A stretch of 64,000 bases of DNA from Sphingobacteriaceae bacterium (GTDB lineage Bacteria > Bacteroidota > Bacteroidia > B-17B0 > Aurantibacillaceae). Both the position numbers and the translations under genes were made by a program. Positions 23,501-64,000 of this stretch are shown here, one piece after another. The first letter of the stretch is position 1, and each line of letters begins with the position of its first letter. Where the stretch lies: assembly GCA_023251775.1 (NCBI GenBank), contig JAHEYC010000006.1, forward strand, positions 1 to 64,000, read 5' to 3'. The notes under the pieces were generated by a model. It was given only the letters and a program-made list of their open reading frames with translations. It did no database searches and was not told the origin of the DNA.

Positions 23501-26500
23501 ATGTATACAAGCCGGCAATTAAATTACTTGCGGTAGGATTTGTTTGAGCATTGCTCCAGTTATATAAATATCCCGGAGTTCCGCCACTTGCATTAATAGT
23601 TGCAAAACCATTACTACCTCCCGAACAACTTACACTTCCTACAGCACTAATTGTTCCAACCAATAAAGGTGGTTGAGAGATACTGAATGTTACTATTGCA
23701 ATACAATTATTTGCATCGGTTGCTGTCATTGTATAATTAACCGGACAAAGATTACTTACACTTTGTGTTGCTAAAGGTCCTGCACCTCCAACATAAAAAT
23801 AAGAAACAGGGCCAACGTTATTTGTTGTAGTTGCAAATGCCATACCATTACATGCATTGAAACATGTAACATTTGTTTTAGAAACACTCGCTAATAATTG
23901 TGGAGGATTATTTAATTGAACAGAACCATTGATGATACAACCTTTGCTGTCCATTACCGTTACTAAATAAACACCCGCTCCCATATTACCGGGTGAGGCA
24001 GTACCTTGGCCTGATCCCGGATTTGGTGTCCATGTATAATTATATGCAGGAGTTCCACCTAATACACCTGCATTAGCATTACCGTTGGTAGCGCCAAAAC
24101 ATAAAGGATTATTTCCTGAAACATTTATAGTTAATGATGTTGGTTGAGTAATAAGAACACTTGCTGTTGCAACGCAACCAACATTATCGGTTACACTTAC
24201 TGTATAAACTCCGGCCGACATATTTGTTGATAATGGAGTGATCTGCGCATTGCTCCACATATAGGTATATGGTAAAGATCCACCACTTGCAGAAGCTGAA
24301 GCCGCTGCATTATTGCCACCAAAACAACTCACGTTAGTTTGACTTATAATAGAAATGCTTGGTCCTGATGAATTAGGAACTGTTGCTGCTCCAGGGTAAA
24401 TACAACCATTCGCATCTTGAACAGCTACTGTGTATGTACCCGCAGGAATATTATTTAATAAAGGACCTGTAGTACTTGTACTCCATGTATATGTATAAGG
24501 ACCATTTCCGCCGCTTGCACTTACACTTGCACTACCATTGCTTTGATTACAATTTGCAGTAGTTGTACTGCTTAATACTGTTACCGAAGTAGGTTGAGTA
24601 ACGTTTACTGTTTTGGTTAGATTACATCCTTTTGTATCTGTAACAGTAACCGAATAAACACCAACTGATAAACCTGCTGCTGTTGAAAGTGTTGATCCGC
24701 CGGGTGTCCACAAATATGTGAAGCCCGGATTACCACCGGTAATATTTGAAACCGTTGCACTTCCACTTGAACCATTATAACATAATACACTTGAACTGTT
24801 AACTGCAAAATTTAATACTGCAGGTTGAGTGATTGTAATGTTGGTATTTGATTTACATCCATTAAAATCGGTTAAATAAACTGTGTAATTTCCAGGAGCA
24901 AGATTGGTAGCCATTGGACCTAATTGTGTATTACTCCAACTATATGTAATTGGCGCAGTGAACGGACCTATGCTACTTGCAATTGCAATTCCATTACTAA
25001 AACCAAAACATGTAACCGGACTAAAGCTTGCAATTACTGCTGTTCCACCAGGAGTTGCACCAACCGAAATTTGCCCTGTTGCTAAACAATTGTTTTGATC
25101 CTTAACTGTAATTGTATAATTTCCTGTAGGAACTCCATTTGACACAGGATTATTTCCACCCATTGGCGACCAAGTGTATGTATATCCTCCTGCACCACCC
25201 GCTGCTGTTACACTTGCAACACCATTAAAGCCTGCACAAATTGCATTGGTACTTGAAAGCGTTAATGTTACAGGCAAAGGGTTAATAACCGCAACGGTTT
25301 TTGTAAGCGTACATCCTTTGCTATCAATAACTGTAATGTTATAAGCAGCAGCCGTAATATTTGTTGTAAATACATTTGATGCCTGATTTGGTCCGGCATT
25401 TAAATTGTATAAATATGGTCCGGTTCCACCACCTGCCAATGCAGTAATGGTTCCATTATTTCCACCAAAACAACTTGGTGAAACTGAACTTAAGGTTAAC
25501 GTTAATTGGGCAGGTTGACTAATATTTAATGTAACTGTAGTTACACAACCCATAGCATCCATTACATTCACCGTATAATTTTGCGCAGTTAAATTTGTAA
25601 AGAATCCAAATCCACTTGTGATATTTCCGGGAGTTAATGTGTAATTATAATTTGGTGTTCCGCCAAACGTATTCAAAGTGAAACTTCCGTTTGCACCGCC
25701 AAAACAACTCACGTTACTAACACTTGCTACTGCCGAACTTGGACTTCCAGTATTTCCAATAACAAAGTTTACAGTAAATGTGCAACCATTCGCATCCATA
25801 ATGACCACACTTTTTGGTCCTGCCAATTGATTGATCACAAAACTATTTGTATTAAATGCCGTGTTGTTCCAAGAATATTGATAAGGACCAACACCGCCCG
25901 TGATAGAAGATACAGTTGCAGATCCATTAGAGTTACCGCAAGCTGCCGGAGTTATAGTTAAGTTCGCCGCAGATGGTCCAACCACTGTTGTTACTGTAGC
26001 AACAATACTAAATGTACAACCTACTGCATCTTTTACAGTGATGGTATGATTACCCGCAGCAAGACTTCCTGTAACAGATCCCGTTGGTACGCTGTTCAAA
26101 CTAAATGTAAATGGACCAACTCCACCGGTTACACCCGTGATACCAATGATACCTGTGTTTGCAGCACATGCCGTTGGCGCCATAGTGAAAGTAATATTAC
26201 TTGGAGGAATTGTATTTACAATAGAAACTGTTTTAGTGAATGTACATCCATTCACATCAATTACGCCAATAGTATAAGTACCTGCTGCTAAATTTGAAAA
26301 GTTTGTTGCAGTACTATAAGGACCGTTATTAATGTTGAATGAATACGTTGGTGTTCCACCTGTAACTGCGCCGGCAACAATGATCCCGGTATTGTTTGCA
26401 CAACTTGCATTTGTGAATGTTGTAGCAAGTGCGGTAATTCCGGGTGTGTTACCAACCGTTGTTGTTACTGTGAATGTACATCCAAAATTATTTGTGAGCA

Positions 26501-27911
26501 CAACCGTATAATTACCGGGAGCCAATGGCGTTAAGGTTTGTGTAACAATTGGATTTCCGTTGAGCGTCATCGCTGTGATGAATTGCCCGGGAGGCGAAGT
26601 ATTCGCAATTACTATCTTACCATTATTCTGTCCGCAAAATGCATTTGTAACTGTAAGCACAGCAGCAGGTGATGCATTAACAACGACGACAGCTGTTGTA
26701 CTCGTTATACAACCATTATCATTTACAGTATGTGTTACGGTGTATGTGCCGGGCAATGTAAAACTTCCTACATAGTTTGCAACGTTACCCGTTGCAGGAG
26801 CACCTGCTACAGGGTTGAATGCATACGTATGTATTCCACCCGGACTAGCCGCATTAAAATTAAATGAATTACCATTGATACATTGCGTTGCATTAGGAAT
26901 TGCAAATGCAGGCGATAAACCAAAAATAGTTATTTGCGTTGTGACGACATTTGTACACGAACCAATAGCAACGGTATGCGAAACTGTGTACACTCCGGGA
27001 TTACCAAATGTAATGAGGGGATTAGTGGACGAACTTATGGCTAACGTTGTATTCGCTGCCGGCGTTACGGCCCACGTATGGCTAACACCTGCGGTTCCTG
27101 TGTGATTAAATTGAATTGGTGTGTTGATGCAACCGTTAGAGTTTAGTGGAGTAAATGCAGCTGAAACAGCAGGCACAACTTGAACTTGAATAGTTTGTTG
27201 TAAGGTATTACATGGTGTTGAAACAACCGCTGTGTAATTTGTTGTTACAACAGGGGAAACTACAATAGCTGAAGTTGTTTGATTAGTTGGAAGCCATGTA
27301 TAAGTTGTTTGACCGCAACCACCGGCAACATTGGTAATACTTAATGTAGAACTTCCCGGCGAACAAAAGATCAATGGGTTTCCGTTTATATTAAAACTTA
27401 ATGGAACAAAAATTCCGGGAACTGTAAATGCAAGTGGTGCCGTCCAAGGACCAACACTATTTGTACCACTCACCCATTCGCGTGCTGCAACAAAATATGT
27501 TTGACCGGGACATAAACCTGCGTAACAAATTACCACAGGCCAGTATGGTTCTTGAATACACTGATCGGGCCAACCCGGAGCAACATATGCAGGAACATTT
27601 AAAAGAGAATTGAACCAAGGAAATTGATTGAATGTAACACCGGGACCAGCCCAGTTCAACAACTGTGTTTGCATTGTTGCAGGGGGAGTTCCGGTTAATT
27701 GATTTGCTGTACACCTTATCTCGGCTTGCAACCAATAAGGTCCTCCGCCACAAGTGGCAGCATTTGAACTTGCAGTGATAGTAACGCAAGTTGGTCCAAC
27801 TGTAATAACAGGGTTAACCAAGGCCATTCCATGACTCGCATATAATTTGCTAAAGAGCGCCGCCATAAAAAGTATGGCGATCAAAATTCCTGCTCTTGGT
27901 TTTAAAAACAT
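20517..27911 (-). CDS. Giant SprB-repeat/PKD adhesin-like protein with gliding-motility-associated (T9SS type B) C-terminal domain
   Basis: About 20 repeats of type TNVSCFGGNNGSASVSASGGTPPYTYTWSN..; PKD domains near C-term (PRKGCMPWTVQFQALSDSSKSDTYIWNFGNG); C-term IYIPNAFTPDDNNLNESFYPQGYGI...KLEIFDRWGELLFSSDNLHKGWNGRVKDKVVEEGVYIYKI; start set at ATG 27911 (MFLKPRAGILIAILFMAALFSKLYA signal). Confidence 0.93.
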   Translation of the reverse strand: MFLKPRAGILIAILFMAALFSKLYASHGMALVNPVITVGPTCVTITASSNAATCGGGPYWLQAEIRCTANQLTGTPPATMQTQLLNWAGPGVTFNQFPWFNSLLNVPAYVAPGWPDQCIQEPYWPVVICYAGLCPGQTYFVAAREWVSGTNSVGPWTAPLAFTVPGIFVPLSFNINGNPLIFCSPGSSTLSITNVAGGCGQTTYTWLPTNQTTSAIVVSPVVTTNYTAVVSTPCNTLQQTIQVQVVPAVSAAFTPLNSNGCINTPIQFNHTGTAGVSHTWAVTPAANTTLAISSSTNPLITFGNPGVYTVSHTVAIGSCTNVVTTQITIFGLSPAFAIPNATQCINGNSFNFNAASPGGIHTYAFNPVAGAPATGNVANYVGSFTLPGTYTVTHTVNDNGCITSTTAVVVVNASPAAVLTVTNAFCGQNNGKIVIANTSPPGQFITAMTLNGNPIVTQTLTPLAPGNYTVVLTNNFGCTFTVTTTVGNTPGITALATTFTNASCANNTGIIVAGAVTGGTPTYSFNINNGPYSTATNFSNLAAGTYTIGVIDVNGCTFTKTVSIVNTIPPSNITFTMAPTACAANTGIIGITGVTGGVGPFTFSLNSVPTGSVTGSLAAGNHTITVKDAVGCTFSIVATVTTVVGPSAANLTITPAACGNSNGSATVSSITGGVGPYQYSWNNTAFNTNSFVINQLAGPKSVVIMDANGCTFTVNFVIGNTGSPSSAVASVSNVSCFGGANGSFTLNTFGGTPNYNYTLTPGNITSGFGFFTNLTAQNYTVNVMDAMGCVTTVTLNISQPAQLTLTLSSVSPSCFGGNNGTITALAGGGTGPYLYNLNAGPNQASNVFTTNITAAAYNITVIDSKGCTLTKTVAVINPLPVTLTLSSTNAICAGFNGVASVTAAGGAGGYTYTWSPMGGNNPVSNGVPTGNYTITVKDQNNCLATGQISVGATPGGTAVIASFSPVTCFGFSNGIAIASSIGPFTAPITYSWSNTQLGPMATNLAPGNYTVYLTDFNGCKSNTNITITQPAVLNFAVNSSSVLCYNGSSGSATVSNITGGNPGFTYLWTPGGSTLSTAAGLSVGVYSVTVTDTKGCNLTKTVNVTQPTSVTVLSSTTTANCNQSNGSASVSASGGNGPYTYTWSTSTTGPLLNNIPAGTYTVAVQDANGCIYPGAATVPNSSGPSISIISQTNVSCFGGNNAAASASASGGSLPYTYMWSNAQITPLSTNMSAGVYTVSVTDNVGCVATASVLITQPTSLTINVSGNNPLCFGATNGNANAGVLGGTPAYNYTWTPNPGSGQGTASPGNMGAGVYLVTVMDSKGCIINGSVQLNNPPQLLASVSKTNVTCFNACNGMAFATTTNNVGPVSYFYVGGAGPLATQSVSNLCPVNYTMTATDANNCIAIVTFSISQPPLLVGTISAVGSVSCSGGSNGFATINASGGTPGYLYNWSNAQTNPTASNLIAGLYTFTVTDTKSCTATGFVNITQPPGLTATLTSSNVTCFNANNGIGNVAYSGGSGIPTFLWLPSLNVTPVASNLGPGTHTVIITDGNGCQQTQTITITQPTQLNATILGIVSTNCGQANGSASVAASGGAGGYTYLWSGSPTYTNPGLTSVTAGPYTIMVTDANGCSTTTIANIPNIAGPTIANTFSTHVDCFGNATGAATVISSVLVPPMTYLWSFAAQTTSAVVNLPAGLHSITVFDGAGCIASANVLINQPPQLVSAIGTPTHSSCFLSFNGQAPALVNGGTPGYTYSWTPSAQTNSLLTNVGAGTFTCVITDAKGCVTSSSVTLTQPQPLIITTNTVIQILCNGGNNGLINTNITGGTPFYTINWASATTVTPPANQVVTNLVAGQYTLSVTDVKGCATSSVYTLNQPSALVIVSSATLPATCGNANGSATVIVTGGTSPYGYNWNTPTPQNTNIAINLNGGVWMLTTTDNNGCIITKTVDVPAPALPTVTLGFVSPLCFGQPNGSAWMTPTGNSPFTYNWAPIAATTGTITGIVASVYTGTVTDMYGCKAIGVINVTQPNKLILTGGGPDTICYGRFIQIFAAAGGGTLPYTYNWTTPGSVITSTLGGPHTVTPNISSTYTVMVTDANGCLNGPIDVIVHVKPQLTGTGFSVTKCAKDNVVLTPVITSPGNGGPYTFNWQPGNQSTPSILVTASYSLNTPNMYTVTISDGCTIPGGTAEFTVRVNPLPVGSFSSTPRKGCMPWTVQFQALSDSSKSDTYIWNFGNGPEANGNNSYQSITYGTDGNYDVSLQITNQYGCKIDTTYLNYVEVWPLPIANFDAIPQTVTLLDPVVTFTNLSIAATSYYWEFSDYTSKNNSSTAVNPTHTYNYLGVYPAWLVATNMYGCKDTLKKNIEVLNDVGIYIPNAFTPDDNNLNESFYPQGYGIKAEDKYKLEIFDRWGELLFSSDNLHKGWNGRVKDKVVEEGVYIYKILITDLQGYKKYFVGHVTVIRQQ

Positions 27912-28115
27912 AACCTGAAAAATTTTTTTTAAATATAGCCTTTTGCGAGTGATAAGACCGCGCGCTTTGCTAAGTAATAATGCCCTTTCACTCAAAAGGT
28001 TTTACCTTTTTTAAAGAGGGCCAAAAACGATCCAACGAAAAGATGGACCTAAGAAAAATGACGAAAAACTCATTTTTTGCTCAAAAATAACGAAAAATGA
28101 TGCTTTTTTAACAAA

Positions 28116-42882: not shown

Positions 42883-43986
42883 TTAAAAATTATTGATGAC
42901 CTTAGAAATATGGTCAATTTGTTCAACGTTCAATTCAGGATACATTGGAATGGAGAGAATATTTTTTGTTTGCTTAAAAGCCACCGGAAATTGTTCGGGT
43001 TGATGTTTCAAATATGAATATGCATTTAAAAACGGTAAGGCGGTAGGATAATGAATAGCAACTTCTATGCCCTGCGAAGAAAGATGTTCTTTTAATTGGT
43101 CTCTTTTGTTTGATCGGATCACATATAAATGAAATACATGATAGGCATTCTTATTTTGTATTGGCAAACTCACATTAGTTGAATCTAATATTTTTGAATA
43201 ATGCGATGCCGCTTTATTACGTGCCAAATTCCATCCATCCAAATAATTTAATTTTACCGAAAGAATGGCGGCATGCAAACCATCCATGCGCGAATTTCTT
43301 CCTTCTATTATATGATCGTGCTTTCTTTGCTGACCATGATTCGCGATCATTCGACATTTTTTTGCGATCGTTTCATCGTTTGTTGCAATAGCGCCGGCAT
43401 CACCATACGCTCCCAAATTCTTTCCCGGGTAAAAACTAAATGAGGAGGCATGACCAAATGTCCCGACCAATTTCCCATTGTATTTTGCCCCATGAGCTTG
43501 TGCGCAATCTTCTATCACAATTAAATTATGTTTTTTGGCAATACGCATCACCTCTTCCATATTTAAAGCGTTGCCGTATAAATGAACGGGCATGATGGCT
43601 TTTGTATTTTTAGTGATCGCTTTTTCAACTAAGTTCAGATCCATTAAAAGCGTATCCTCGCACACGTCCACAAACACGGGTTTTGCGCCACATCGCCCAA
43701 CCGCTTCCGAACTAGATATCCACGAAAGCGCAGGCACTATTACTTCCTCCCCTTCTGTGATACCATAAGCTTCTAATAATATTTCTAAAGAATCAGTTCC
43801 ATTTGCGCAAGAAATCACATTAGCTATTCCCAAATATTTTGCAAATTCTGATTCAAATTTCTGAACGTATTTATTTCCCGATCCACCAATAAAAGCAGTA
43901 TCGGCTATCACATCGGCAATAGCTTTGTCTATTTCTGCTTTATAGTTTTGATATTGTAATTTAAGATCTACGAAAGGGACTTTCAT
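42883..43986 (-). CDS. DegT/DnrJ/EryC1/StrS sugar aminotransferase (WbpE-like candidate)
   Basis: VPFVDLKLQYQNYKAEIDKAI...ANGTDSLEILLEAYGI..GEEVIVPALSWISSSEAV...IVIEDCAQAHGAKYNGKLVGTFGHASSFSFYPGKNLGAYGDAGAI. Confidence 0.9.
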   Translation of the reverse strand: MKVPFVDLKLQYQNYKAEIDKAIADVIADTAFIGGSGNKYVQKFESEFAKYLGIANVISCANGTDSLEILLEAYGITEGEEVIVPALSWISSSEAVGRCGAKPVFVDVCEDTLLMDLNLVEKAITKNTKAIMPVHLYGNALNMEEVMRIAKKHNLIVIEDCAQAHGAKYNGKLVGTFGHASSFSFYPGKNLGAYGDAGAIATNDETIAKKCRMIANHGQQRKHDHIIEGRNSRMDGLHAAILSVKLNYLDGWNLARNKAASHYSKILDSTNVSLPIQNKNAYHVFHLYVIRSNKRDQLKEHLSSQGIEVAIHYPTALPFLNAYSYLKHQPEQFPVAFKQTKNILSIPMYPELNVEQIDHISKVINNF

Positions 43987-43995
43987 GTTCTGAAT

Positions 43996-44469
43996 TTATA
44001 AGTTTCTTATTTTCTTGGCGGGATTACCTGCGTAAATTCCAGGTTCGGTAATATTCTTTGTAACTACAGCGCCTGCTCCAATAACAACTTTATCGCAAAT
44101 TGTAATCGGTAAAATTGTGGTGTTTGAACCAATGGATACGTTATTTCCAATAGTAGTTGACTTCCATAATTCTTTATTTCCGCGGGCAGGACCGCCAATT
44201 GAAAAAAGATCGTTCACAAACATCACACCGTGCCCAATAAAACAATCATTTCCAATAGTCACCAATTCACAAATAAATGAATGCGATTGTATCTTGCAAT
44301 TATTTCCTATCACCACATCTTTTTGAATTTCTACAAAGGGACCAACGAACGCATTGTTGCCAATTTTGCATCCATAAATGTTCACCGGTTCAACTATTTT
44401 ACAGTTCTCACCAAACTCAACATTTTTGATCCCAACTTTTAAGCCCGTGAATTTATTTGGCGCTTCCAT
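43996..44469 (-). CDS. Left-handed beta-helix N-acetyltransferase (WbpD-like candidate)
   Basis: Hexapeptide repeats ..IGNNAFVGPFVEIQKDVVIGNNCKIQSHSFICELVTIGNDCFIGHGVMFVND...IGAGAVVTKNITEPGIYAGNPAKKI. Confidence 0.88.
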   Translation of the reverse strand: MEAPNKFTGLKVGIKNVEFGENCKIVEPVNIYGCKIGNNAFVGPFVEIQKDVVIGNNCKIQSHSFICELVTIGNDCFIGHGVMFVNDLFSIGGPARGNKELWKSTTIGNNVSIGSNTTILPITICDKVVIGAGAVVTKNITEPGIYAGNPAKKIRNL

Positions 44470-45469
44470 ACATCATTTCGATAGCTTTAATACTTTTTAT
44501 TCCCTCATATCCATCCACCGTTTCATGACTTCTTCCTTTCAAATGCGAAATAATTGACTTGATCACCTTATCATGATTTGAACTGGTTCCTTGGTATTTA
44601 CCATATGCATTTGGTTTATCAGAAAATTCTATGCCTTGGGGTAATGGATAATTTTCCACATCCCAATATTCGATCTTGTTCAAATACTGTCCGCCAATTT
44701 TTATAGTACCCTTTTCCCCAATAATGGTAATGCTTCCTTCATAATTCTTATTGTAAACGCAAGTTGTCCAGATCAAATTTCCAATAGTTCCGTTTGCGAA
44801 TTTTAAAACTGCAATTCCTGAATCTTCCGTTTCTATTTTGTGATCTTGAGTTTCCATTTTACATTGCGATTCTACCAGATCACCGAACCACCAAACCAAA
44901 AGATCAATAAAATGACTTGCTTGTGTATACAAAGATCCGCCTTCTAATTTCTTTTTTCCTCTCCATGGCGATTCGTCGTAATACCCTTGATATCTGTTCC
45001 AAAGAATATCGCATTTTACAATGAATATTTTTCCCACTCTATTTTCCTCTAAGGCTTGCTTGGCTAATTTGATCGGGATATTATAACGATTTTGTTTAAC
45101 CACCCATAATTTTTTATTATTCTTGTCTGCAGCATCTATCATTCGCTTACAATCAGAACTTAAAAGTGCCATGGGTTTTTCAACTAGAACATTAAATCCT
45201 TTATTTAATGCATCTATCGTCATTTCCGCATGTAAATGATGAGGCGTAACCACATTAATAATATCGGCCTTTACTTCTTCCAACATTTTACTGTAAGACT
45301 CATACACTTTTATTCCTCCATATAAATTGCTCAGTTCGTTTGCTTTTGCAATATCCGTATCGCAAATAGCCACTACTTCCGCTTCTTCATCGGCGTCTAA
45401 TACAGCAATATGTCGCTTTCCAATACTCCCGCAACCAACTATAGCGAATTTTATTTTACTATTACTCAT
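44453..45469 (-). CDS. Gfo/Idh/MocA oxidoreductase (WbpB/WlbA-like candidate)
   Basis: KFAIVGCGSIGKRHIAVL...NVVTPHHLHAEMTIDALNKGFNVLVEKPMAL...LWVVKQNRYNIPIKLAKQAL; next to WbpD/WbpE-like genes. Confidence 0.88.
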   Translation of the reverse strand: MSNSKIKFAIVGCGSIGKRHIAVLDADEEAEVVAICDTDIAKANELSNLYGGIKVYESYSKMLEEVKADIINVVTPHHLHAEMTIDALNKGFNVLVEKPMALLSSDCKRMIDAADKNNKKLWVVKQNRYNIPIKLAKQALEENRVGKIFIVKCDILWNRYQGYYDESPWRGKKKLEGGSLYTQASHFIDLLVWWFGDLVESQCKMETQDHKIETEDSGIAVLKFANGTIGNLIWTTCVYNKNYEGSITIIGEKGTIKIGGQYLNKIEYWDVENYPLPQGIEFSDKPNAYGKYQGTSSNHDKVIKSIISHLKGRSHETVDGYEGIKSIKAIEMMYGSAK

Positions 45470-48457: not shown

Positions 48458-50863
48458 TTAATTTTTTGAAAATTTAAAAAGATTCTTAAGGGTCACTAAT
48501 TTTGGTAATATGTATTTAAATATTGGATATTCTAGATTGGCGTATGATCTAAATTGTTCATGCGGCACGGGTTTTGAAGAAATGATCTGTTTGAATTCTT
48601 CTTCCGAAAGATCCATTTTCTTTAAAAAGAAACGAAGATCCTCTTTAAGTACAACTGCATCAATGATCGGTTTATCTAATTCTTTTAAAGCTTCCTCTTT
48701 GGTAATTTGGCCCGAACATATCATGGATGATAAATGTGCTTTGCGTTTATCAACTCCAAATTTTTCTTTTAAAGCATATCCCTGATAAAATCTGGTAAAA
48801 ATGGATTCATAATGTTTACCACCATAATCTTTCCAGCCAATATTATCAATAAGATATTGCTTTGAATCCACCTTATGGTAATCCAAATAACATAATATAG
48901 GCTCAATATTAAGTCCCCAAATAAATTTTAAATATTGATGCCACCAAAAACCATAGGTAGGAAATGATCTGAATTTTTTTTGTGTGCCAAATTTCTTATA
49001 AATATCTCTGATATTCTTTAGATCTCCTTTATCATACCGCATTGGCTTCGGTAAAATTCCTTCCGATTGATAATTAAAACCTGTAAGGACATACTTTACA
49101 TTCAACTCTTTTGCTTTTTTGAGTGTGATAGCCCACAAACCATGATCGGTTGGAACTTCCCAATCTAAAACTCCTGCTTTTATATATGCTTTTTGCAGAT
49201 CTTTGAATTCCTCCCAATCCACTACAAAGGTGTAAAGATCAAATCCAGTTTTTTTTGATATTTGTTCAATGTTCTTTACGGCAAGTTCGCTATTCCAACC
49301 ATTATCGAAATGAATAAGCAAAGCATTTAATCCCAACTCGTGCGCTTTAATGGCAACAAAAGAACTATCTACGCCACCGCTTACACCAATAAGACAATTA
49401 TATTTTTTCCCTTTGCTCTCACTTTTTATTTTTTCCGCTATCTTTTTCAACTGTGCATCTTTTGTTGACTGGGTCGGTAACATATACATCTCAAAATCTC
49501 GCTTGAACATAGTACAGTAATTACAAACACCATCAGCATTAAATGTGATAGCAGGATCATCCGTAGTATCTAACACACATTGTGTACAACACACTTTATA
49601 TTTTTGCTTCCAAGCATTTTCCTTTTCAATATCCGGTGAGCATTGCAACTCCAGATGCTCGCAAAACATATTAAAATTGTTCTCCGCGTTAAAATGATCC
49701 TTCCAAAAACGCTTTATCTGCTTACTTGCTTCTTCAGTAACCCAACTTGAATCCTTAAAGGTCAAAATAGTTTGCATTAATTCGTTAGGGCTAATGTCTT
49801 TTTTTACCAGAACGCCGGTCTTGCCCGTTACAATTTCGTGCACAGCTCCAACGTTGGTTGCCAAAATAGGGATCCCGAAACTTATCGCCTCCATCATCGA
49901 CACAGGAATGCCTTCTGTTTCGCTAACATTGATGAATAACGTTACAGGTACCCTTTTGTAAAATTCGTTCAATTCCTCAGGGGAAATATGTCCATTCATG
50001 TGAACTTTAACATTATCGGGTATCCGTTCAAGAATTGGTTTTAATTTATCCATTTCCTGCTTGGTATAATCACCAATATGGGTCCACATCATATTCTCCT
50101 TAGCCGTAGTTAAAGCCTCTGCGATCAAATTCAATCGTTTTAAGGGGACAAAGTTCGAGCAAGAAACCAAATGCAATTCGCTTTTCAATAAAGGATTTGT
50201 TCCATTATCAGTTGTACCCAAATAAAATGCTTTTGCCTTGTGAGAAAAAGTGAAATTCTCTTTAATATATCGTTCACCCAACTTAGAAATAGGAAAGATC
50301 GCAGACGCATATTCATAACACGTATGTCTGAATGGAATAAAGTTGTTCGGCCATCGCTCTTTATAAAGATCAAAACCATGTAATCGAAAAACAAATTCTG
50401 TTATCTTGTGATCTTTCATTAATAATGCTAAGGCCAATGCCCAACTATTCATCCAGAAGGAATAATGCAAGGTTTGGTTATGGGTTGAAGGATCGATGAC
50501 CTTTATCTTCTCAGATAATTCAATAGCATTTAAAAGCTCGCTTAAATAGTATCTTATTTTTCTAATAAAATATAATTTTGGTTTACAGTGGATGAATTCA
50601 TTACCAAGTATACTTAGAATGCTCCAAAAATTCTTACGGAAGAGTGCTTTCCTATTACGCACATACTTTATCTCACTTAAAAATCTCACTTCCACATTTG
50701 GAGGTAATTCAAAAGCCCCTTTCTCCTCTATTAAAGGAAGTATGATCACTTTTTTGAAATGTTTACTTAAATACGGTAATTCATTATGCAAATACGGCTC
50801 GCTATGCCCGTAAGGGAAGTTAACTGTATAAAGAAAAATAGTGGTATCCTTTTTATTCGGCAT
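48458..50863 (-). CDS. Bifunctional fusion: GT4 glycosyltransferase (N-terminal half) + WbpG-type N-acetyl sugar amidotransferase (C-terminal half)
   Basis: N-half VSCSNFVPLKRLNLIAEAL...SETEGIPVSMMEAISFGIPILATNVGAVHEIV; C-half CTQCVLDTTDDPAITFNADGVCNYC...YNCLIGVSGGVDSSFVA..AHELGLNALLIHFDNGWNSELAVKNI...VPTDHGLW...VLTGFNYQSEG; single uninterrupted 801-aa ORF. Confidence 0.92.
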   Translation of the reverse strand: MPNKKDTTIFLYTVNFPYGHSEPYLHNELPYLSKHFKKVIILPLIEEKGAFELPPNVEVRFLSEIKYVRNRKALFRKNFWSILSILGNEFIHCKPKLYFIRKIRYYLSELLNAIELSEKIKVIDPSTHNQTLHYSFWMNSWALALALLMKDHKITEFVFRLHGFDLYKERWPNNFIPFRHTCYEYASAIFPISKLGERYIKENFTFSHKAKAFYLGTTDNGTNPLLKSELHLVSCSNFVPLKRLNLIAEALTTAKENMMWTHIGDYTKQEMDKLKPILERIPDNVKVHMNGHISPEELNEFYKRVPVTLFINVSETEGIPVSMMEAISFGIPILATNVGAVHEIVTGKTGVLVKKDISPNELMQTILTFKDSSWVTEEASKQIKRFWKDHFNAENNFNMFCEHLELQCSPDIEKENAWKQKYKVCCTQCVLDTTDDPAITFNADGVCNYCTMFKRDFEMYMLPTQSTKDAQLKKIAEKIKSESKGKKYNCLIGVSGGVDSSFVAIKAHELGLNALLIHFDNGWNSELAVKNIEQISKKTGFDLYTFVVDWEEFKDLQKAYIKAGVLDWEVPTDHGLWAITLKKAKELNVKYVLTGFNYQSEGILPKPMRYDKGDLKNIRDIYKKFGTQKKFRSFPTYGFWWHQYLKFIWGLNIEPILCYLDYHKVDSKQYLIDNIGWKDYGGKHYESIFTRFYQGYALKEKFGVDKRKAHLSSMICSGQITKEEALKELDKPIIDAVVLKEDLRFFLKKMDLSEEEFKQIISSKPVPHEQFRSYANLEYPIFKYILPKLVTLKNLFKFSKN

Positions 50864-50866
50864 GAA

Positions 50867-52006
50867 TTATTTTAAACTCGGATTCTCTTTGAAAAAATCA
50901 TTGATCTTTCCGCAAATGAATTCCACTTCATTGGTGGTTAAACTATAATAAAATGGTAATCTTAATAATGTGTCTTGATAGTGATCTGCTTGTTTTAATT
51001 CACCGCCGTTATATTTCGACTCATAAAACGGACTCTTATGCAGAGATAAATAATGGAACACGGTTAAAACATCAAACGATTTTAAATAAGTTATCAATTT
51101 TGTTCGAGTTTCTAAAGAGTTTAACACCAAATAAAACATGTGCGCATTATTTGTTGCGTACTCCGGAATGTGGGGCAAAGTAAAATTCCCCTTAGAAAAA
51201 GCACTTAATTTTTGGTGATAGGTCTCCCAGATCAATTTTCGTTTTGCTTGAATTTGTTCTATGTTCTCAATTTGTGCGAACAAGAACGCGGCAATAACTT
51301 CGCTGGGTAAAAAAGAGGAACCAATATCTACCCAACCATATTTATCCACTTCTCCTCTAAAAAAAGAAGAGCGGTTTGTTCCTTTTTCTCTGATGATCTC
51401 GGCACGTTTTATAAAACGTTCATCATTAATGGCCAACATTCCTCCTTCTCCCGAAATAATATTTTTAGTTTCATGAAATGAAAAACAAGATAAATGTCCG
51501 ATCGAACCTAAGGGTTTTCCCTTATAATAGCTATCAATGGCCTGCGCTGCATCTTCTACAACAAACAGCTCATGTTTTTTAGCTAATGCCATGATCCTAT
51601 CCATATCACAAGCAATTCCGGCATAATGAACAGGCAATATCACTTTTGTTCGTTTTGTGATCAATGGTTCGATATTCTCCACATTCATATTTGGATTCTC
51701 ACCGCCCGAATCAACAAAAATAATTTTTGCACCTCTTAATACGAAGGCATTTACTGTAGATACGAAGGTGTATGAAGGTGCGATCACTTCATCGCCTTCT
51801 TTTATGTCTAATAAAATTGCTGCCATTTCTAAAGCATCGGTACAACTCGTTGTAAGCAATGCCTTTTTGAAACCATATTTTTTCTCGAAGAACTGATGAC
51901 ATTTTTGAGTAAAAATTCCGTCGCCCGAGATCTTTCCCGATTGCACAGCCTCGGCAATATACTTTGTTTCGTTGCCCGTTAAAAAAGGTTTATTAAATGG
52001 GATCAT
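50867..52006 (-). CDS. wecE: dTDP-4-amino-4,6-dideoxygalactose transaminase (WecE/RffA family)
   Basis: MIPFNKPFLTGNETKYIAEAVQSGKISGDGIFTQKCHQFFEKKYG...LTTSCTDALEMAAIL..GDEVIAPSYTFVSTVNAFVLRGAKIIFVD...FSFHETKNIISGEGG. Confidence 0.9.
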   Translation of the reverse strand: MIPFNKPFLTGNETKYIAEAVQSGKISGDGIFTQKCHQFFEKKYGFKKALLTTSCTDALEMAAILLDIKEGDEVIAPSYTFVSTVNAFVLRGAKIIFVDSGGENPNMNVENIEPLITKRTKVILPVHYAGIACDMDRIMALAKKHELFVVEDAAQAIDSYYKGKPLGSIGHLSCFSFHETKNIISGEGGMLAINDERFIKRAEIIREKGTNRSSFFRGEVDKYGWVDIGSSFLPSEVIAAFLFAQIENIEQIQAKRKLIWETYHQKLSAFSKGNFTLPHIPEYATNNAHMFYLVLNSLETRTKLITYLKSFDVLTVFHYLSLHKSPFYESKYNGGELKQADHYQDTLLRLPFYYSLTTNEVEFICGKINDFFKENPSLK

Positions 52007-52018
52007 TTATAAGATAGA

Positions 52019-52726
52019 TTAAAACCAAAAATGATAAATATTTTTTGTGTCTGAAATATGATAGCCGCATTTTTCGTAAAGTTTGCAAGCAAGCGTATTT
52101 TCTCCTTGAGTTACCACAGACGCCGTTGGAAGTTTTTTTGATAAGTACCAATTATGAGAAGCCTTCATTAATTCCATTCCAATTCCTTTTCCTCTTGAGG
52201 CTGGACTTACCGCAATTAGCCCAATTTGCCCATTTATTCCCTCGGCCTTTAATGTTACCAAGCCCAGTATTTTATTATTCTCTTTGTACACTAATACTTC
52301 ATCCGCTATTTGTCTGTTCACCGACTTCGTTATCCATTCGGTATATAAACGTTCAAATTCTTTGTTCTTAAAATTCTTATCCTTGCTAAATCGTGAGTAA
52401 ATACCGCTTTCAATGGCAAGATCCAAAACATCTTTAACCGGTTGGTCAGGTAAAAAACTCACAATATTCTTAGACGCTTCCTCTCCTTTGACAGAAGATA
52501 TGGCAAACGTTGTTTTTGTATCAACCAAAGATCCGCCATGCTGTTTTGCAATTTCATTAAGTTCTTTATTTTGAGAAGGAATAAAACTATATGCCAGTTT
52601 ATAGTGCATTTTCTTTAGTTCGTTCAAACACGATTCCATTTCAATTGCAGAATGGATCTTCTTTGCATCTAAAAGTGCTACTTTATAATTAAAGAACTGC
52701 GAATCCCAATCGAGATGTTTAAACAT
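52019..52726 (-). CDS. wecD: GNAT acetyltransferase, WecD/RffC-like (dTDP-4-amino-4,6-dideoxygalactose N-acetyltransferase candidate)
   Basis: LDWDSQFFNYKVALL...SGIYSRFSKDKNFKNKEFERLYTEWITKSVNRQIADEVLVY...IGLIAVSPASRGKGIGMELM; adjacent to WecE. Confidence 0.8.
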   Translation of the reverse strand: MFKHLDWDSQFFNYKVALLDAKKIHSAIEMESCLNELKKMHYKLAYSFIPSQNKELNEIAKQHGGSLVDTKTTFAISSVKGEEASKNIVSFLPDQPVKDVLDLAIESGIYSRFSKDKNFKNKEFERLYTEWITKSVNRQIADEVLVYKENNKILGLVTLKAEGINGQIGLIAVSPASRGKGIGMELMKASHNWYLSKKLPTASVVTQGENTLACKLYEKCGYHISDTKNIYHFWF

Positions 52727-53664
52727 TAGCTCTCACTATTTGCTTTTTCACTGATGATATACAATGGTCTACCTTTTACTTCATTAAATACACGCGAAAG
52801 ATATAATCCAATTATTCCTAAGATAAAAATTATCAATCCCGAGAAAAAACAAATTGAAATGATAAGACTCGACCAACCAGTTACAGTAAATTTTCCGTTT
52901 AATGCCATTACTATTAATACTACAGCCGACAAAAAGGAGATCCCCGCAATGAAAATTCCTAATTTAACAACGAGTTTTAATGGCTTTTCGGAGAAAGCAA
53001 CAATGGTGTTGAATCCTAATGTCATAAGTTTTTTAAGACTGTATGAACTCTCACCTTCAAAACGCAAAGCATGTTCTATCTCGATAGAGGTTTTTTTAAA
53101 TCCTACCCATTGAACTGCAGTTGGAAAAAATCGAATTTGCTCGCGCATTTGCGTAATAGCCTCAATTGCTTTTTTATGATAGATACCAAAATTGGCGATA
53201 GAACTATCCTGTTCGGTTTCGGTCATGTACCCAAGAAAACGATAGAACATCTTCGAGGTAGATCGTTTAAGGAATCCATCTTGTCGTTGCATTCGTTTTG
53301 CCAATACAATATCAAATCCTTCCATTGCTTTTTTATACAATTTTTCTATCTCTTCGGGTTGATCTTGAAGATCACAATCCATTACAACTACCCAATCACC
53401 TTTTGCAATATCTAATCCCGCTGTAATGGCGTAATGCTGACCAAAATTTCGCGAGAGTTTTATGCCTTTAACTTTGTTATTTGTTTTACATACGTTATTT
53501 ATTGCTTCCCAACTTTTATCCGGACCACCATCTTCCACCAAAATGATCTCATACTTCTGTGTGATCTTTGAAATAGAATCGGATATTCTTTTTACCAATT
53601 CAGGAATTATCTTTTCTGCCTTATAAACCGGCGAAACAATGGATATGTGAATGTCGTTACTCAT
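52726..53664 (-). CDS. DPM1/GtrB-like family 2 glycosyltransferase with two C-terminal TM helices
   Basis: ISIVSPVYKAEKIIPELVKRI...EIILVEDGGPDKSW...LSRNFGQHYAITAGLDIAKGDWVVVMDCDLQDQPEEI. Confidence 0.92.
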   Translation of the reverse strand: MSNDIHISIVSPVYKAEKIIPELVKRISDSISKITQKYEIILVEDGGPDKSWEAINNVCKTNNKVKGIKLSRNFGQHYAITAGLDIAKGDWVVVMDCDLQDQPEEIEKLYKKAMEGFDIVLAKRMQRQDGFLKRSTSKMFYRFLGYMTETEQDSSIANFGIYHKKAIEAITQMREQIRFFPTAVQWVGFKKTSIEIEHALRFEGESSYSLKKLMTLGFNTIVAFSEKPLKLVVKLGIFIAGISFLSAVVLIVMALNGKFTVTGWSSLIISICFFSGLIIFILGIIGLYLSRVFNEVKGRPLYIISEKANSES

Positions 53665-58726: not shown

Positions 58727-59430
58727 TTTTTATTTAGCAGATCTTTGCTTGCTTTAAATCCTAAATTCATGAGTACATCAATAATACTTAAGCCCTTTAC
58801 AAAATCAGGCGAATTAAATTGCGGATACGCTTTAGGAACATAACTATTATATTTTACAGCTATACCTTGCGCCACAAACAATTCATCTTTTTGATATTCC
58901 CCTGCTCCCGCTCCGCACAGATAAGTGGAGGCATTTACTTTTTTAAGAAGATCAATAAGCATTTCATTCGAAGTGAACTGTGGTTGCATTTGCGAACTAA
59001 CTACTACTTCTGTTGCGATGTCCATTTTTGTCATCACTTCTTTTATGAATTGTGTATTCTTTTGACAAAGATCTACGAGTGGTGAACTAAAATAATTTTC
59101 TATAAGGTAAAACACGTCTTTAAAGAACGGGGCTTTTTTATAATTGAGTTCAACCGATTGTTTGAATTTTCTAATGGAGTGTTCGTCCATATATATTTCC
59201 ATTTTATTAATGGGAATAAATACTTCCTTCTCATCTTTTTTCAAATTCACCGACATCCAATGTTCTTTCCCACCTATCAACATTTTTACTCTTCGGCACC
59301 AAAATTCTGCTGATTTAGGATTGTTGCTGACATGATCCAGTATAATAAATGTATCAGCATTGTTGATCTTATCAAATAAACCCAACCATGGCATAAAATC
59401 GGGTTGGTGAATAGTTACAATTTTGCTCAT
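58723..59430 (-). CDS. WbqC family protein
   Basis: MSKIVTIHQPDFMPWLGLFDKINNADTFIILDHV..NPKSAEFWCRRVKM...YLCGAGAGEYQ. Confidence 0.92.
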   Translation of the reverse strand: MSKIVTIHQPDFMPWLGLFDKINNADTFIILDHVSNNPKSAEFWCRRVKMLIGGKEHWMSVNLKKDEKEVFIPINKMEIYMDEHSIRKFKQSVELNYKKAPFFKDVFYLIENYFSSPLVDLCQKNTQFIKEVMTKMDIATEVVVSSQMQPQFTSNEMLIDLLKKVNASTYLCGAGAGEYQKDELFVAQGIAVKYNSYVPKAYPQFNSPDFVKGLSIIDVLMNLGFKASKDLLNKK

Positions 59431-59864
59431 TATAACTTATTCAGGTAGATCTGAAAACTGATAAGATCTGTTTGACTTAGTGCTTTAGCGTAGATATGTT
59501 TGCTGTCTTCACCATTCGACTTAATAATTAGTTTTCTTACTTGAGGATCGGAGCCTATCATTTTTTTTACGGCTTCAATCATTTTATAAGAATATCCTTT
59601 CTTTCTAAAGTCTTTATGTATCACAAATTCTTCCATTTCGTAACCAATTCCTAAATATCTTGGCATATAGAATTTATTAAGTGTAACTAATCCAACTTTT
59701 TCGTGTTCGTTTCCAAAGATCATGATAGAACAAACATCACTTTTTAAAATGTCTTTGAAATAAACACCAAATGAATCCAAGGAATAGTTCACGTTTCCTC
59801 GCAACTCTTCTAAAGTTTTGTAGATCCATTCCAGATCATTTAATGTGGCCTTACGTAAAAACAT
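59430..59864 (-). CDS. GNAT N-acetyltransferase
   Basis: FLRKATLNDLEWIYKTLEELRGN...EFVIHKDFRKKGYSYKMIEAVKKM. Confidence 0.85.
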   Translation of the reverse strand: MFLRKATLNDLEWIYKTLEELRGNVNYSLDSFGVYFKDILKSDVCSIMIFGNEHEKVGLVTLNKFYMPRYLGIGYEMEEFVIHKDFRKKGYSYKMIEAVKKMIGSDPQVRKLIIKSNGEDSKHIYAKALSQTDLISFQIYLNKL

Positions 59865-60888
59865 GTTTTAATGCTTGGTTAACGGAATTTATTTCATCAT
59901 CGCTTAGATCTTCAAAATAAGGAAGACAAAATGTATTATTTACGATCTTAGACGCATTTACCAATTGTATTTGCTCTTCCTTACTACAATTCCATGTGAA
60001 AAAAGGAGATAAAGCGATCTGCTTGGCTTTAAAAGTCTCGTTCAGTTTAGCTTTCAGTGATTCATCCACATAAATAACAAAACGTTGAGAGATCTTACTG
60101 TTTCCATTCGTTAATACGTTCACTTCCTTTTTTCCTTGGAGCGTTGCCAAATAACTATTTCGTATTTGCGTTAAACGTTCTTGCGTTGTTTTGATATGAG
60201 CTAAATTAGCATGTAGAACAGCGGCATGTGCATTCAAGAATCGGAAATTATAACGTTCTGAAGTTTCAAAACTCGTTTGATCATCATAGTATACCAATTT
60301 TGACGCTTTCTGTGCAAGGTCTGAGTCGTTCAACACTAAAGCGCCGCCATCAATTCCGTTTATTCCCTTAGTTGGATAAAAAGAAAACACTTGTACATCG
60401 GCTTCGCTTGAAGAGAACAAACTTGAATGAAAAGATTGACATGCATCTTCGATCACTGTTAAGCCTAATTTTTTGAATTCTGAGGTGGCCGATAAATTAC
60501 CGGCAAAATTTGCTGAAATAATATAGTTAATGTTGTGTTGTTTTACCAATCTGGTAACATGTTCCACATTACAATTCCCATCACTTTCGTTCACGTCGCA
60601 AAATATAGGTTTGTTCCCACTTGTAATTACTGCATTTGTTATTGCAAAACACGTACTCGCACAAGGAACTATCACCTCTTGCCCTTTTATGCCCAATGCC
60701 TTTAGTGCCACAAATAAAGCAGAATTTCCATTGGAAGTTAAAACAACATGTTGTTTTTTAAAAAGTATTTTAAGTTGCTCTTCCACTTTTTTAATGTACT
60801 CGCCATTGGCCCAAGAGGAATTTTGATGAACCTTTGTTAATTCCTCTAACTCCTTTTTATTTGAACTAAGTCGAAAGTAAGGGATCAT
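59851..60888 (-). CDS. DegT/DnrJ/EryC1/StrS sugar aminotransferase
   Basis: MIPYFRLSSNKKELEELTKVHQNSSWANGEYIKKVEEQLKILFKKQHVVLTSNGNSALFVALKALGIKGQEVIVPC...VIEDACQSFHSS...VFSFYPTKGINGIDGGAL. Confidence 0.9.
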   Translation of the reverse strand: MIPYFRLSSNKKELEELTKVHQNSSWANGEYIKKVEEQLKILFKKQHVVLTSNGNSALFVALKALGIKGQEVIVPCASTCFAITNAVITSGNKPIFCDVNESDGNCNVEHVTRLVKQHNINYIISANFAGNLSATSEFKKLGLTVIEDACQSFHSSLFSSSEADVQVFSFYPTKGINGIDGGALVLNDSDLAQKASKLVYYDDQTSFETSERYNFRFLNAHAAVLHANLAHIKTTQERLTQIRNSYLATLQGKKEVNVLTNGNSKISQRFVIYVDESLKAKLNETFKAKQIALSPFFTWNCSKEEQIQLVNASKIVNNTFCLPYFEDLSDDEINSVNQALKHVFT

Positions 60889-61617
60889 TTATTTTTCGTT
60901 ATCGTAAAAGTGTTCATCAAAATAGGTATCAGGGTGGGTCAAGATATTGATCAAGGAGTGTCCGTCTTTTGCGTGTTCAACAAATGTTCGGTTATCACCT
61001 GCTATTAATTTTCCCTTATCGTAACATTTCCACCGCACCCATTCCGAATCGGAAACGTAAAATGCTTCTTGAAATAAATTAAATTCGGGTTGATGGTCGT
61101 AGGCTTCGTAAAGCAAACCAAATTCCTTTGCCGTTCTTTCTTTCCAAAAATCAAGATTGTTCAAGCCTGTCATTCCTCCATGACTAGCAACTCCGCGGAT
61201 CTTTGTATTGAACATTCTATTAATAATATCAATATCTCTTTCTAAACAGGCTTTTGCATCTTCATTCCAAATGGCAGACTGATCTATCACTTCAGAATGA
61301 TAACCTAATTCGTGACCGGAAGCCATCAATTTTTTAATGATGCGATAATTCTCAAATGAAAAAGGATTGTACTCGGGCGCATGCAATCTTATAAAAAAAG
61401 TTGCTTTAATATCAAGTTTATTAAAGATTTCTATTAAACGTCCGGCTTTTTTAACCGAAAGATCAATATCCACTCTGTTCACCACAACTTTACTGCTTGA
61501 AGTGAGTTTACTTTTTGTTTTAAAATAGTCTTCGCAGGTGATGAACTTGTATCCAAGCTCTTTCACTTGGCGATATTGCTCTTCAATAGTTTGAAAGGTG
61601 AATTTAAATGTGCTCAT
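60889..61617 (-). CDS. Polysaccharide deacetylase-like (NodB-fold) protein
   Basis: VVVNRVDIDLSVKKAGRLIEIFNKLDIKATFFIRLHAPEYNPFSFENYRIIKKLMASGHELGYHSE. Confidence 0.8.
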   Translation of the reverse strand: MSTFKFTFQTIEEQYRQVKELGYKFITCEDYFKTKSKLTSSSKVVVNRVDIDLSVKKAGRLIEIFNKLDIKATFFIRLHAPEYNPFSFENYRIIKKLMASGHELGYHSEVIDQSAIWNEDAKACLERDIDIINRMFNTKIRGVASHGGMTGLNNLDFWKERTAKEFGLLYEAYDHQPEFNLFQEAFYVSDSEWVRWKCYDKGKLIAGDNRTFVEHAKDGHSLINILTHPDTYFDEHFYDNEK

Positions 61618-62369
61618 ATTTTTTCAAGTATTTTTTTATCAGGGAAATTTATTAATACACCAAAGTCCTTTTTTTGATAAACAACCATACTGCCCATGGC
61701 CACTGCCGAAGCGCCGCCATTTTGCACGGCATCTTTTAAATGGTCTACACTTCCTGCTCCGCCATGCGCAATTACCGGCACATTAACCGAGTCTGTGATC
61801 CGTTTTACCATGGCTACATCAATTCCTTCCCAAGTTCCCTCTTTATCAACCGATGTGATCATGATCTCGCCCACCCCCGCTTTTACCAATTCTTTTGCCC
61901 ATTCTTCAGGCGATTGTTTATGTTTATCGGAGGCGGAATTAGACACTACTTCTAATTTTCCAAAAAAATTCTTTTTTACATCAATAACTCCAACTACGGC
62001 TTGTGAACCATAAATGGCCGCTACTTCGCCGATCAATTTTAAATTTTGATGCGCAGCGCTGTTGATCGCAATTTTTTCAATTCCAATTTGAAATATTTTT
62101 TTTGCTTGTTCCAATGTTCGTATGCCACCGCCATAAGCCAATGGCATAAAACACTCATCGGCTATTTCGGATAATAATTTATAATTAGGCTCGCGATCTT
62201 GTGGTGTTGCTTCAATATCTAAGAAAATAAGTTCGTCCACTTCCTTCTCATTGAAAATTCTAACGGTATTAATTGGATCGCCAACGTATTTTGGATTTTT
62301 GAATTTAATTGTTTTTACTAATCCGCTACCTTTAAGCAATAAACACGGAATATATCTGGTGAGAAGCAT
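61614..62369 (-). CDS. hisF: HisF-like cyclase/ammonia-channel subunit for sugar amidotransferase
   Basis: RYIPCLLLKGSGLVKTIKFKNPKYVGDPINTVRIFNEKEVDELIFLDIEAT...PLAYGGGIRTLEQAKKIFQIGIEKIAINSAA...VPVIAHGGAGSVDHL; located next to WbpG-like gene rather than other his genes. Confidence 0.92.
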   Translation of the reverse strand: MLLTRYIPCLLLKGSGLVKTIKFKNPKYVGDPINTVRIFNEKEVDELIFLDIEATPQDREPNYKLLSEIADECFMPLAYGGGIRTLEQAKKIFQIGIEKIAINSAAHQNLKLIGEVAAIYGSQAVVGVIDVKKNFFGKLEVVSNSASDKHKQSPEEWAKELVKAGVGEIMITSVDKEGTWEGIDVAMVKRITDSVNVPVIAHGGAGSVDHLKDAVQNGGASAVAMGSMVVYQKKDFGVLINFPDKKILEKI

Positions 62370-62980
62370 TAGATCTTTGAGAAATTAGTTAGCAGGTGCA
62401 TTCCGTATTTATGACTTTTTTCGGGATGGAATTGCGCCCCGTAAATATTATCCTTTTGAATTGCCGAATCAAATTCGCCGCCATGATTTGTTTTGAGGAT
62501 AGAATTCTCATTCTTATCGCACACAACTTTATACGAATGCACAAAGTAAAAACGATAATCCTCCGTAAATCCTTCGGTTAATTTGCTTGAATTATTTTTC
62601 TTCACAAAGTTCCAACCCATATGCGGGATCTTCAAGGAAGGATCATTATCGAATTTAAATTTGATGGTTTGTGCCGGAATAAGATCAAGACCTTTTAAAA
62701 TTCCTTCTTCGCTGCTGCGTGTGAGAAGCTGCATCCCAAGGCAAATTCCTAAGAACGGAACTTTTTGTTCGAGTGCTTTATGAACTAATACACTTCTTAA
62801 GTTCAGTTCATCAATTTTTTGAATAGCAGCATCAAATGCACCAACGCCTGGCAACAAGATCTTTTCTGCTGCTTCAATTTCTTTAAGGTCAGAACTTATT
62901 TTACAAGGCGCGCCAATTCGTTTGAGCATGTTTTGCACCGATCCTAAATTGCCCATCCCGTAATTAATAATTGTGATCAT
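62369..62980 (-). CDS. hisH: HisH-like glutaminase subunit
   Basis: ITIINYGMGNLGSVQNMLKRIGAPCKISSDLKEIEAAEKILLPGVGAFDAAI...FLGICLGMQLL...YFVHSYK...GAQFHPEKSH. Confidence 0.95.
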   Translation of the reverse strand: MITIINYGMGNLGSVQNMLKRIGAPCKISSDLKEIEAAEKILLPGVGAFDAAIQKIDELNLRSVLVHKALEQKVPFLGICLGMQLLTRSSEEGILKGLDLIPAQTIKFKFDNDPSLKIPHMGWNFVKKNNSSKLTEGFTEDYRFYFVHSYKVVCDKNENSILKTNHGGEFDSAIQKDNIYGAQFHPEKSHKYGMHLLTNFSKI

Positions 62981-62982
62981 AT

Positions 62983-64000
62983 TTATTTTTGCATTCCGGA
63001 TCTAGAAGTGTACTTAATATAAAAACTCATTGGCACAAGACTTGCCTTAGCAAGAATATAGAAAAGCGGCCTTAGTCTTTCAAATCTCCGCTTGTATGTT
63101 TTATAATCGCGATAAGATCTTTTCTCACCATTCATTATTTTATCATATTCCTCGTCCGAAAATTCTGTCCTTTTTTTGAAATACGGTATAAGTTCATCTT
63201 CAACAAATGGTGGTGTACTATATTCTTTTATAGCATCCTCTCGCTTCATTAACCCGGATCTTACAGATGCCGATAAACTATTATTTCGTGAATCGATGCC
63301 AAATTTTTGCGGTCCGTACACAGAAGTACTGAACGCTGCTATTCTATTTTCAAGATGATGGCCACCGTAATATTCCCATTTATATTCTTTTTCAAGAAAT
63401 GTTCTTGCTTCTTGTTTCGAATAATCAATATACCATAGAGGTCTTATTTTTTTAATTCGTTTTACAAGGATCCATTTCATAAATGAAGCGAAATCCATAT
63501 TAGGAAATGTTTTCATAGGCAGTTTACCAAATTGCTTATGCACATTTTTAATATACCCTCCATCTACGTATGAACTACCGAGTGGCGATACACCTTCGGT
63601 CATGAACGAGTGTCCTTCGAGCACATATTTAACTCCATATTTAGCAGCGGCTCTATACATGGTTTCTGCTAAAGCAATATCGGTTGGACCATCGATCTCT
63701 GACACACCTGCTAAAAAAAATGAACGAATAATATCATCCGATTCTTTATTATCCACCACATGTGTATAAAGGTCAACATTAAGTTTACTTAGTACTTTTG
63801 TGATATTTTGCGTAGCAATTGCCGTATTCCATGTATTGTCGTAATGAACAGCAAGTGGTCTCAAGCCCCATTCCACTGCTTTAACGATCATATAAGAAGA
63901 ATCCGTTCCACCGCTAACACCAACAATGCAATCATACTTTTTATGTTTACCATCTTTCTTTATCTGATCAAGGATGGCCATGAAATTCTTTAAACCTTCG
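62983..64000 (-). CDS. WbpG-type N-acetyl sugar amidotransferase (5' end truncated by window edge)
   Basis: KYDCIVGVSGGTDSSYMIVKAVEWGLRPLAVHYDNTWNTAIATQNITKVLSKLNVDLYTHVVDN...GPTDIALAETMYRAAAKYGVKYVLEGHSFMTEGVSPLG; frame remains open (..EGLKNF) past ATG 63981 to the window end. Confidence 0.92.
   Translation of the reverse strand, partial: EGLKNFMAILDQIKKDGKHKKYDCIVGVSGGTDSSYMIVKAVEWGLRPLAVHYDNTWNTAIATQNITKVLSKLNVDLYTHVVDNKESDDIIRSFFLAGVSEIDGPTDIALAETMYRAAAKYGVKYVLEGHSFMTEGVSPLGSSYVDGGYIKNVHKQFGKLPMKTFPNMDFASFMKWILVKRIKKIRPLWYIDYSKQEARTFLEKEYKWEYYGGHHLENRIAAFSTSVYGPQKFGIDSRNNSLSASVRSGLMKREDAIKEYSTPPFVEDELIPYFKKRTEFSDEEYDKIMNGEKRSYRDYKTYKRRFERLRPLFYILAKASLVPMSFYIKYTSRSGMQK

Follow-up and report, generated by a model that had tools for sequence, protein, structure and literature searches.

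A GT4 glycosyltransferase fused to an N-acetyl sugar amidotransferase, and the recurrent linkage of the two enzymes in Bacteroidota

A single gene on the minus strand of the window (the whole stretch of 64,000 nucleotides analysed here) encodes an 801-aa protein that joins a GT4 glycosyltransferase to an N-acetyl sugar amidotransferase (48458..50863), as read from its open frame, from Pfam and NCBIfam searches and from AlphaFold2 and Foldseek. Both domains are of known kinds; the fused arrangement appears new, as part of a wider pattern of repeated linkage of amidotransferases to glycosyltransferases. No description of a GT4-amidotransferase fusion was found in the literature searched, which was mostly open-access. 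We infer catalytic activity for both halves, and the protein is probably a bifunctional enzyme.

Architecture of the fusion protein

The frame starts at an ATG and contains zero internal stops. An earlier note made from the sequence had described it as one uninterrupted frame holding two complete domains; the first statement is upheld by the open minus-strand frame and the recurrence of the fusion in independent genomes, the second by Pfam, by TIGR03573 and by profiles built from relatives, which were used to set the domain limits. The GT4 domain occupies residues 4-403 (49655..50854, minus strand), with matches to Pfam PF00534 and PF13692 and to the BshA fold, and the amidotransferase domain residues 421-797 (48473..49603, minus strand), with a TIGR03573 score over cut-off and a match to the 8wex fold. 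The gap between the two profile matches defines an interdomain linker of residues 404-420 (49604..49654, minus strand), where model confidence is lowest between the domains (pLDDT 69-83). The boundary previously put at 49640/49620 falls inside this linker, the profile limits being 49655 and 49603. The domain search proposed in the earlier note places Glycos_transf_1 (PF00534) on residues 230-377 with 56.3 bits (Pfam cut-off 26.4) and the WbuX N-acetyl sugar amidotransferase profile TIGR03573 on residues 425-761 with 259.5 bits (NCBIfam cut-off 203.2), the latter match spanning profile positions 3-343 of 344. An assembly join, a frameshift artefact or chance was considered as the origin of the fusion and rejected: the same architecture runs across the junction in independent genomes, with a split counterpart of one cluster elsewhere, and an artefact is therefore excluded.

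The GT4 domain carries the motif E317-GIPVSMM-E325 (49889..49915, minus strand), both glutamates of which are invariant in an alignment of six fusions and are the two conserved glutamates of retaining GT4 enzymes. The zinc-like CxxC...CxxC motif and the PP-loop reported previously are present in the amidotransferase domain: the tetracysteine motif C426xxC429...C447xxC450 (49514..49588, minus strand) is invariant in the six fusions, as are S495, G496, G497, D499 and S500 of the PP-loop SGGVDS (residues 495-500; 49364..49381, minus strand). These correspond to the family motifs CxxC...[GN]xCxxC and SGGxDS, and zinc is bound in 8WEX by the cysteines equivalent to those of the fusion (PMC10607449).

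The AlphaFold2 model, another of the checks proposed, was built from 61 sequences and has a mean pLDDT of 92.8 and a pTM of 0.74; this pTM leaves the relative orientation of the two domains unfixed, and the model gives no sign of a channel between the active sites. With Foldseek, the GT4 half matches BshA-type structures (6n1x, E 4.8e-15, TMt 0.73; BshA range 0.73-0.75) and is, as modelled, of the GT-B fold, and the amidotransferase half matches 8wex, the N-acetyl sugar amidotransferase of Legionella (E 1.1e-13, TMt 0.63). Judged by sequence and model, both halves look catalytically able, being complete with conserved active-site residues. That one half would instead be a non-catalytic scaffold or specificity domain appears very improbable. 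The cluster holds a separate, HisH/HisF2-linked amidotransferase that could make the fused one redundant, and the zinc cysteines are largely lost in the amidotransferase part of the AsnB-type fusions L089-L091; against this, the window retains all four cysteines, the PP-loop and the GT4 glutamates, and these do not vary among the six fusions.

Recurrence, partners and phylogeny of the fusions

The full-length match recurs among 150 relatives. In a phylum-wide sample of 398 genomes, about 70 amidotransferases score over the cut-off and only that of the window belongs to a frame of more than 500 aa, whereas about 14 of about 150 do so in 89 genomes of the window's own family. The view of the earlier note that these amidotransferases are standalone elsewhere is thus not borne out as stated, roughly one in ten being fused within the taxonomic family, to partners of several kinds. 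A scan of GTDB contigs yielded the same GT4-amidotransferase architecture on nine of them (L186-L194); L189 and L192 match the records G137 and G091 found before the scan. After removal of duplicates, 13 fusions with the GT4 family of the window entered the trees, the window's own and twelve others from relatives. Since the scan was seeded with fusions, the larger set described next gives no measure of prevalence.

Of 193 amidotransferase relatives, 33 are fusions. The partner is a glycosyltransferase, from one of several families, in 24-26 of these, an AsnB-type enzyme in four (one of them, L203, counted as such from length and position alone) and an acetyltransferase in one. The partners besides the window's GT4 family include other GT4 enzymes (L053, L054, L234 and others) and, in L050, L051 and L088, a GT-A-like domain that reaches 79% probability against GT2 profiles. 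The Pfam match of this N-terminal part is weak, a PDB sequence search gave nothing useful, and it is provisionally regarded as a GT-A enzyme. For the 736-aa fusions L052 and L056, a GT4 identity of the N-terminal part was rejected, as the profile comparison gave 2% probability; the partner, called GT-like from circumstance, is possibly GT-B-like.

Several further architectures were observed. The reverse order, an amidotransferase followed by a C-terminal GT2, occurs in L092:1-1627, which is cut by the contig end. Three proteins of about 1000 aa (L089:8025-11033, L091:2674-5688 and L090:8756-11395) combine an AsnB-type glutamine-dependent asparagine synthetase with a WbpG-type amidotransferase and may make their own ammonia. 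A single 594-aa ORF (L200:5389-7173) joins a hexapeptide acetyltransferase to an N-acetyl sugar amidotransferase, bringing acetylation and amidination together in one protein. The 832-aa product of L049:1062-3560 carries a 450-aa N-terminal domain ahead of the amidotransferase, for which a Pfam search found no match and which has stand-alone homologues in other amidotransferase loci. Proteins of 608-678 aa with an N-terminal GATase_7 glutaminase and a distant amidotransferase-like domain scoring below cut-off are encoded in L093, L094, L096, L099 and L038:7513-9339, the last in the window's own genome (contig C107). The same contig holds a probable second GT4-amidotransferase fusion (L038:12005-13468, 487 aa), the start of which is lost at the contig edge.

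When the amidotransferases are labelled as fused or alone, the tree of all 193 requires 20 changes, at least 16 of them forced by well-supported branches; this tree cannot tell gains of fusion from losses. For the window's GT4 family taken alone, 6 changes are found in the amidotransferase tree and 6-7 in bootstraps of the GT4 tree, and a smaller amidotransferase set analysed by two methods gives the same picture of repeated change. A single ancient fusion inherited by all was rejected: for this GT4 family, the amidotransferase tree and the GT4 tree conflict, and on either of them at least 6 changes are required.

Particular loci illustrate both fission and exchange of partners. L186 and L251 share the same cluster (amidotransferase, HisH, HisF, two more genes, GT4, second amidotransferase), 45-66% identical gene by gene; in L186 the GT4 and the amidotransferase after it are joined in a single protein of 795 aa, and in L251 they are separate genes with an 11 bp overlap. 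In the GT4 tree the window groups as sister (support 100/91) to a GT4 of G007 that directly precedes a separate amidotransferase, and there the GT4 ends with a TAA two codons before the ATG of the amidotransferase, in the same frame. In the amidotransferase tree the window and G025 are sisters, with 72% identity across the part present, yet in the GT4 tree they are not; the partners have thus been swapped, with the two domains remaining linked or becoming linked again.

Adjacency of unfused genes was analysed as well. Stand-alone homologues of the GT-A-like partner directly adjoin an amidotransferase in five of six cases. The gene following a stand-alone amidotransferase is a glycosyltransferase in 48 of 142 cases, against 135 of 1038 for other genes of the same loci, a count in which the seeds of the glycosyltransferase profile were partly drawn from such neighbours. 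With seeds not chosen by adjacency, the figures become 30/160 against 121/1090 (p 0.009); the profile used there was poorly converged and this result is kept as the conservative one.

The repeated fusion and fission, the split but adjacent genes of L251 and the exchange of partners all speak for a functional pair of amidotransferase and glycosyltransferase. The strongest argument for a coupled function is this recurrent re-linking, and amidination and transfer probably operate together; the suggestion of the earlier note that amidination is coupled to sugar transfer is in this respect retained. Operon streamlining alone, in which the stop codon between in-frame neighbours was lost and two independent pathway enzymes perform uncoupled reactions in one chain, would fit the frequent adjacency and overlap of the genes (median gap about 0), the G007 pair with its two-codon spacing and the evident persistence of split versions. 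Since repeated linkage to several glycosyltransferase families and partner exchange exceed what inheritance of one fusion would give, this explanation is considered improbable.

Sugar substrate, ammonia supply and order of steps

The fusion gene sits in a long minus-strand glycan cluster. Only 3 bp upstream of it lies a gene for a WecE-type dTDP-4-amino-4,6-dideoxygalactose transaminase (50867..52006, minus strand; NF008687, 573 bits, cut-off 375); next in the upstream direction is a WecD-like N-acyltransferase (52019..52726, minus strand) whose acyl group is not certain because its NF008212 score of 110.6 bits is below the equivalog cut-off of 219. Upstream of the latter, the ORF list and the comparison of loci place a GT2-like glycosyltransferase (52726..53664, minus strand), and the order GT2-WecD-WecE-GT4(-amidotransferase) recurs in L042 and L101. 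Outside the cluster, the same genome encodes RmlB (463 bits) and RmlA (468 bits), so that together with WecE dTDP-Fuc4N can be made; further amino-sugar genes of the cluster are found at 42883-45469 and 59430-60888. WecE was not seen beside the fusions L186-L194, and the sugar therefore probably differs between relatives.

In the same cluster, about 11 kb from the fusion and not adjacent to it, are found an AglZ/HisF2-family acetamidino modification protein (HisF2; 61614..62369, minus strand; NF038364, 360.1 bits, cut-off 310), a HisH-type glutaminase (62369..62980, minus strand; TIGR01855, 234.6 bits, cut-off 105.4) and a second, stand-alone N-acetyl sugar amidotransferase of 396 aa (62983..63999, continuing to 64173 on the contig, minus strand; TIGR03573, 236.5 bits). 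Across the genome, five genes clearly encode amidotransferases, and four of these pass the TIGR03573 cut-off. All 20 genomes examined with fused or closely linked amidotransferases possess a single HisF2-like copy scoring 304 bits or more, 13 of these exceeding the cut-off of 310, and these copies stand apart from weaker HisF paralogues. The distance to the fusion or split pair is about 11 kb in the window, 19 kb in G080 and 22 kb in G007. As a HisF2-like copy is present in all 20 genomes, and lies kilobases away from the fusion or split pair in these three, ammonia for the fused amidotransferase is probably supplied in trans.

A second source of ammonia is suggested by AsnB-type neighbours and by the AsnB fusions: of 153 amidotransferases in the lineage (loci L037-L185), 42 lie beside an AsnB-type gene, 36 beside HisH/HisF and 4 beside both. 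An AsnB-like protein has been proposed for acetamidino formation in the O-glycan cluster of Tannerella forsythia (PMC6120980). Relatives of the window's amidotransferase often adjoin or are fused to AsnB-type enzymes. For the window's own cluster, which encodes HisH/HisF2, the ORF lists showed no gene of the AsnB type.

Amidination of the nucleotide sugar before its transfer by the GT4 domain is the reading we favour, at about even confidence. The family performs an ATP-dependent swap of the acetyl oxygen for ammonia (PMC10607449). The C-terminal half would thus activate with ATP the N-acetyl group of a nucleotide-linked amino sugar and exchange its oxygen for ammonia to give an acetamidino group. 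The most likely substrate would be dTDP-Fuc4NAc formed by the adjacent WecE and WecD-like enzymes, with dTDP-Fuc4NAm as product; this assignment, drawn from the two neighbouring genes, is the weakest step and falls somewhat short of even confidence. The single HisH/HisF2 pair of the cluster would feed ammonia in trans to both the fusion and the second amidotransferase, the N-terminal GT4 half would move the amidinated sugar onto the growing lipid-linked glycan, and the fusion would hold a scarce modified donor together with its own transferase. We infer the order of these steps, as we do the sugar and the supply of ammonia in trans.

The opposite order, with the GT4 domain attaching the N-acetyl sugar to a lipid-linked acceptor for subsequent modification by the fused amidotransferase, was the one towards which the earlier note leaned and is judged rather unlikely. 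It is consistent with the commonest fusion partner being a transferase and not a sugar-nucleotide enzyme, and with the pocket of 8WEX, described as unusually wide and open (PMC10607449). In Methanococcus maripaludis lacking the WbpG homologue MMP1081, the third sugar is still transferred, though unamidinated, and the glycan lacks only the fourth sugar (PMC2952790). The glycosyltransferase concerned therefore does not require prior amidination. The same result also fits a pool of unmodified nucleotide sugar, and it shows no more than that one transferase is able to act without prior amidination. The acetyltransferase-amidotransferase fusion L200 favours the nucleotide-sugar stage, and the WecE and WecD-like genes directly upstream fit a free nucleotide sugar at least equally well.

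Relation to known systems

The window's amidotransferase shares its domain, tetracysteine motif and PP-loop, as well as the nearby HisH/HisF2 genes, with the WbpG (P. aeruginosa O5), WbuX (E. coli O145) and PseA-type enzymes (TIGR03573, 8WEX). These are described as separate proteins, whereas the domain of the window is the C-terminal half of an 801-aa protein that also contains a glycosyltransferase. The GT4 domain has the GT-B fold and the two conserved glutamates in common with retaining GT4 enzymes of known structure (BshA, WbnH, WaaG), from which it differs in carrying an amidotransferase at its C-terminus. As in the AglXYZ and WbpG-HisH2-HisF2 acetamidino systems, an amidotransferase, a HisH and an AglZ/HisF2-family HisF occur in one cluster; unlike these systems, the window provides a single HisH/HisF2 pair for its two amidotransferases, of which one is fused to a glycosyltransferase.

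For Bacteroidota, a coupled amidination and transfer can be tentatively proposed, doubtful on balance, in which the amidotransferase is an exchangeable module, linked anew to many different glycosyltransferases, that either passes a short-lived amidinated donor straight to the transferase joined to it or amidinates a sugar once that transferase has attached it. If true, the coupled step would replace the free pool of amidinated donor that is assumed for WbpG and PseA. The sole structural paper found states that the function of the amidotransferase family is little known (PMC10607449). The acceptor and the timing of acetamidino formation are poorly characterised, and the fusion gives a means of finding out at which stage bacterial surface sugars are amidinated. 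A polypeptide that would combine both activities, together with the naturally separate genes found in a matching cluster, makes the question directly testable. From the repeated fusions one can further predict the glycosyltransferase that uses an amidinated sugar, a match otherwise difficult to infer from sequence.

As a separate observation, positions 20517-27995 of the window hold a repetitive ORF of 2492 aa that by eye resembles a large secreted adhesin.
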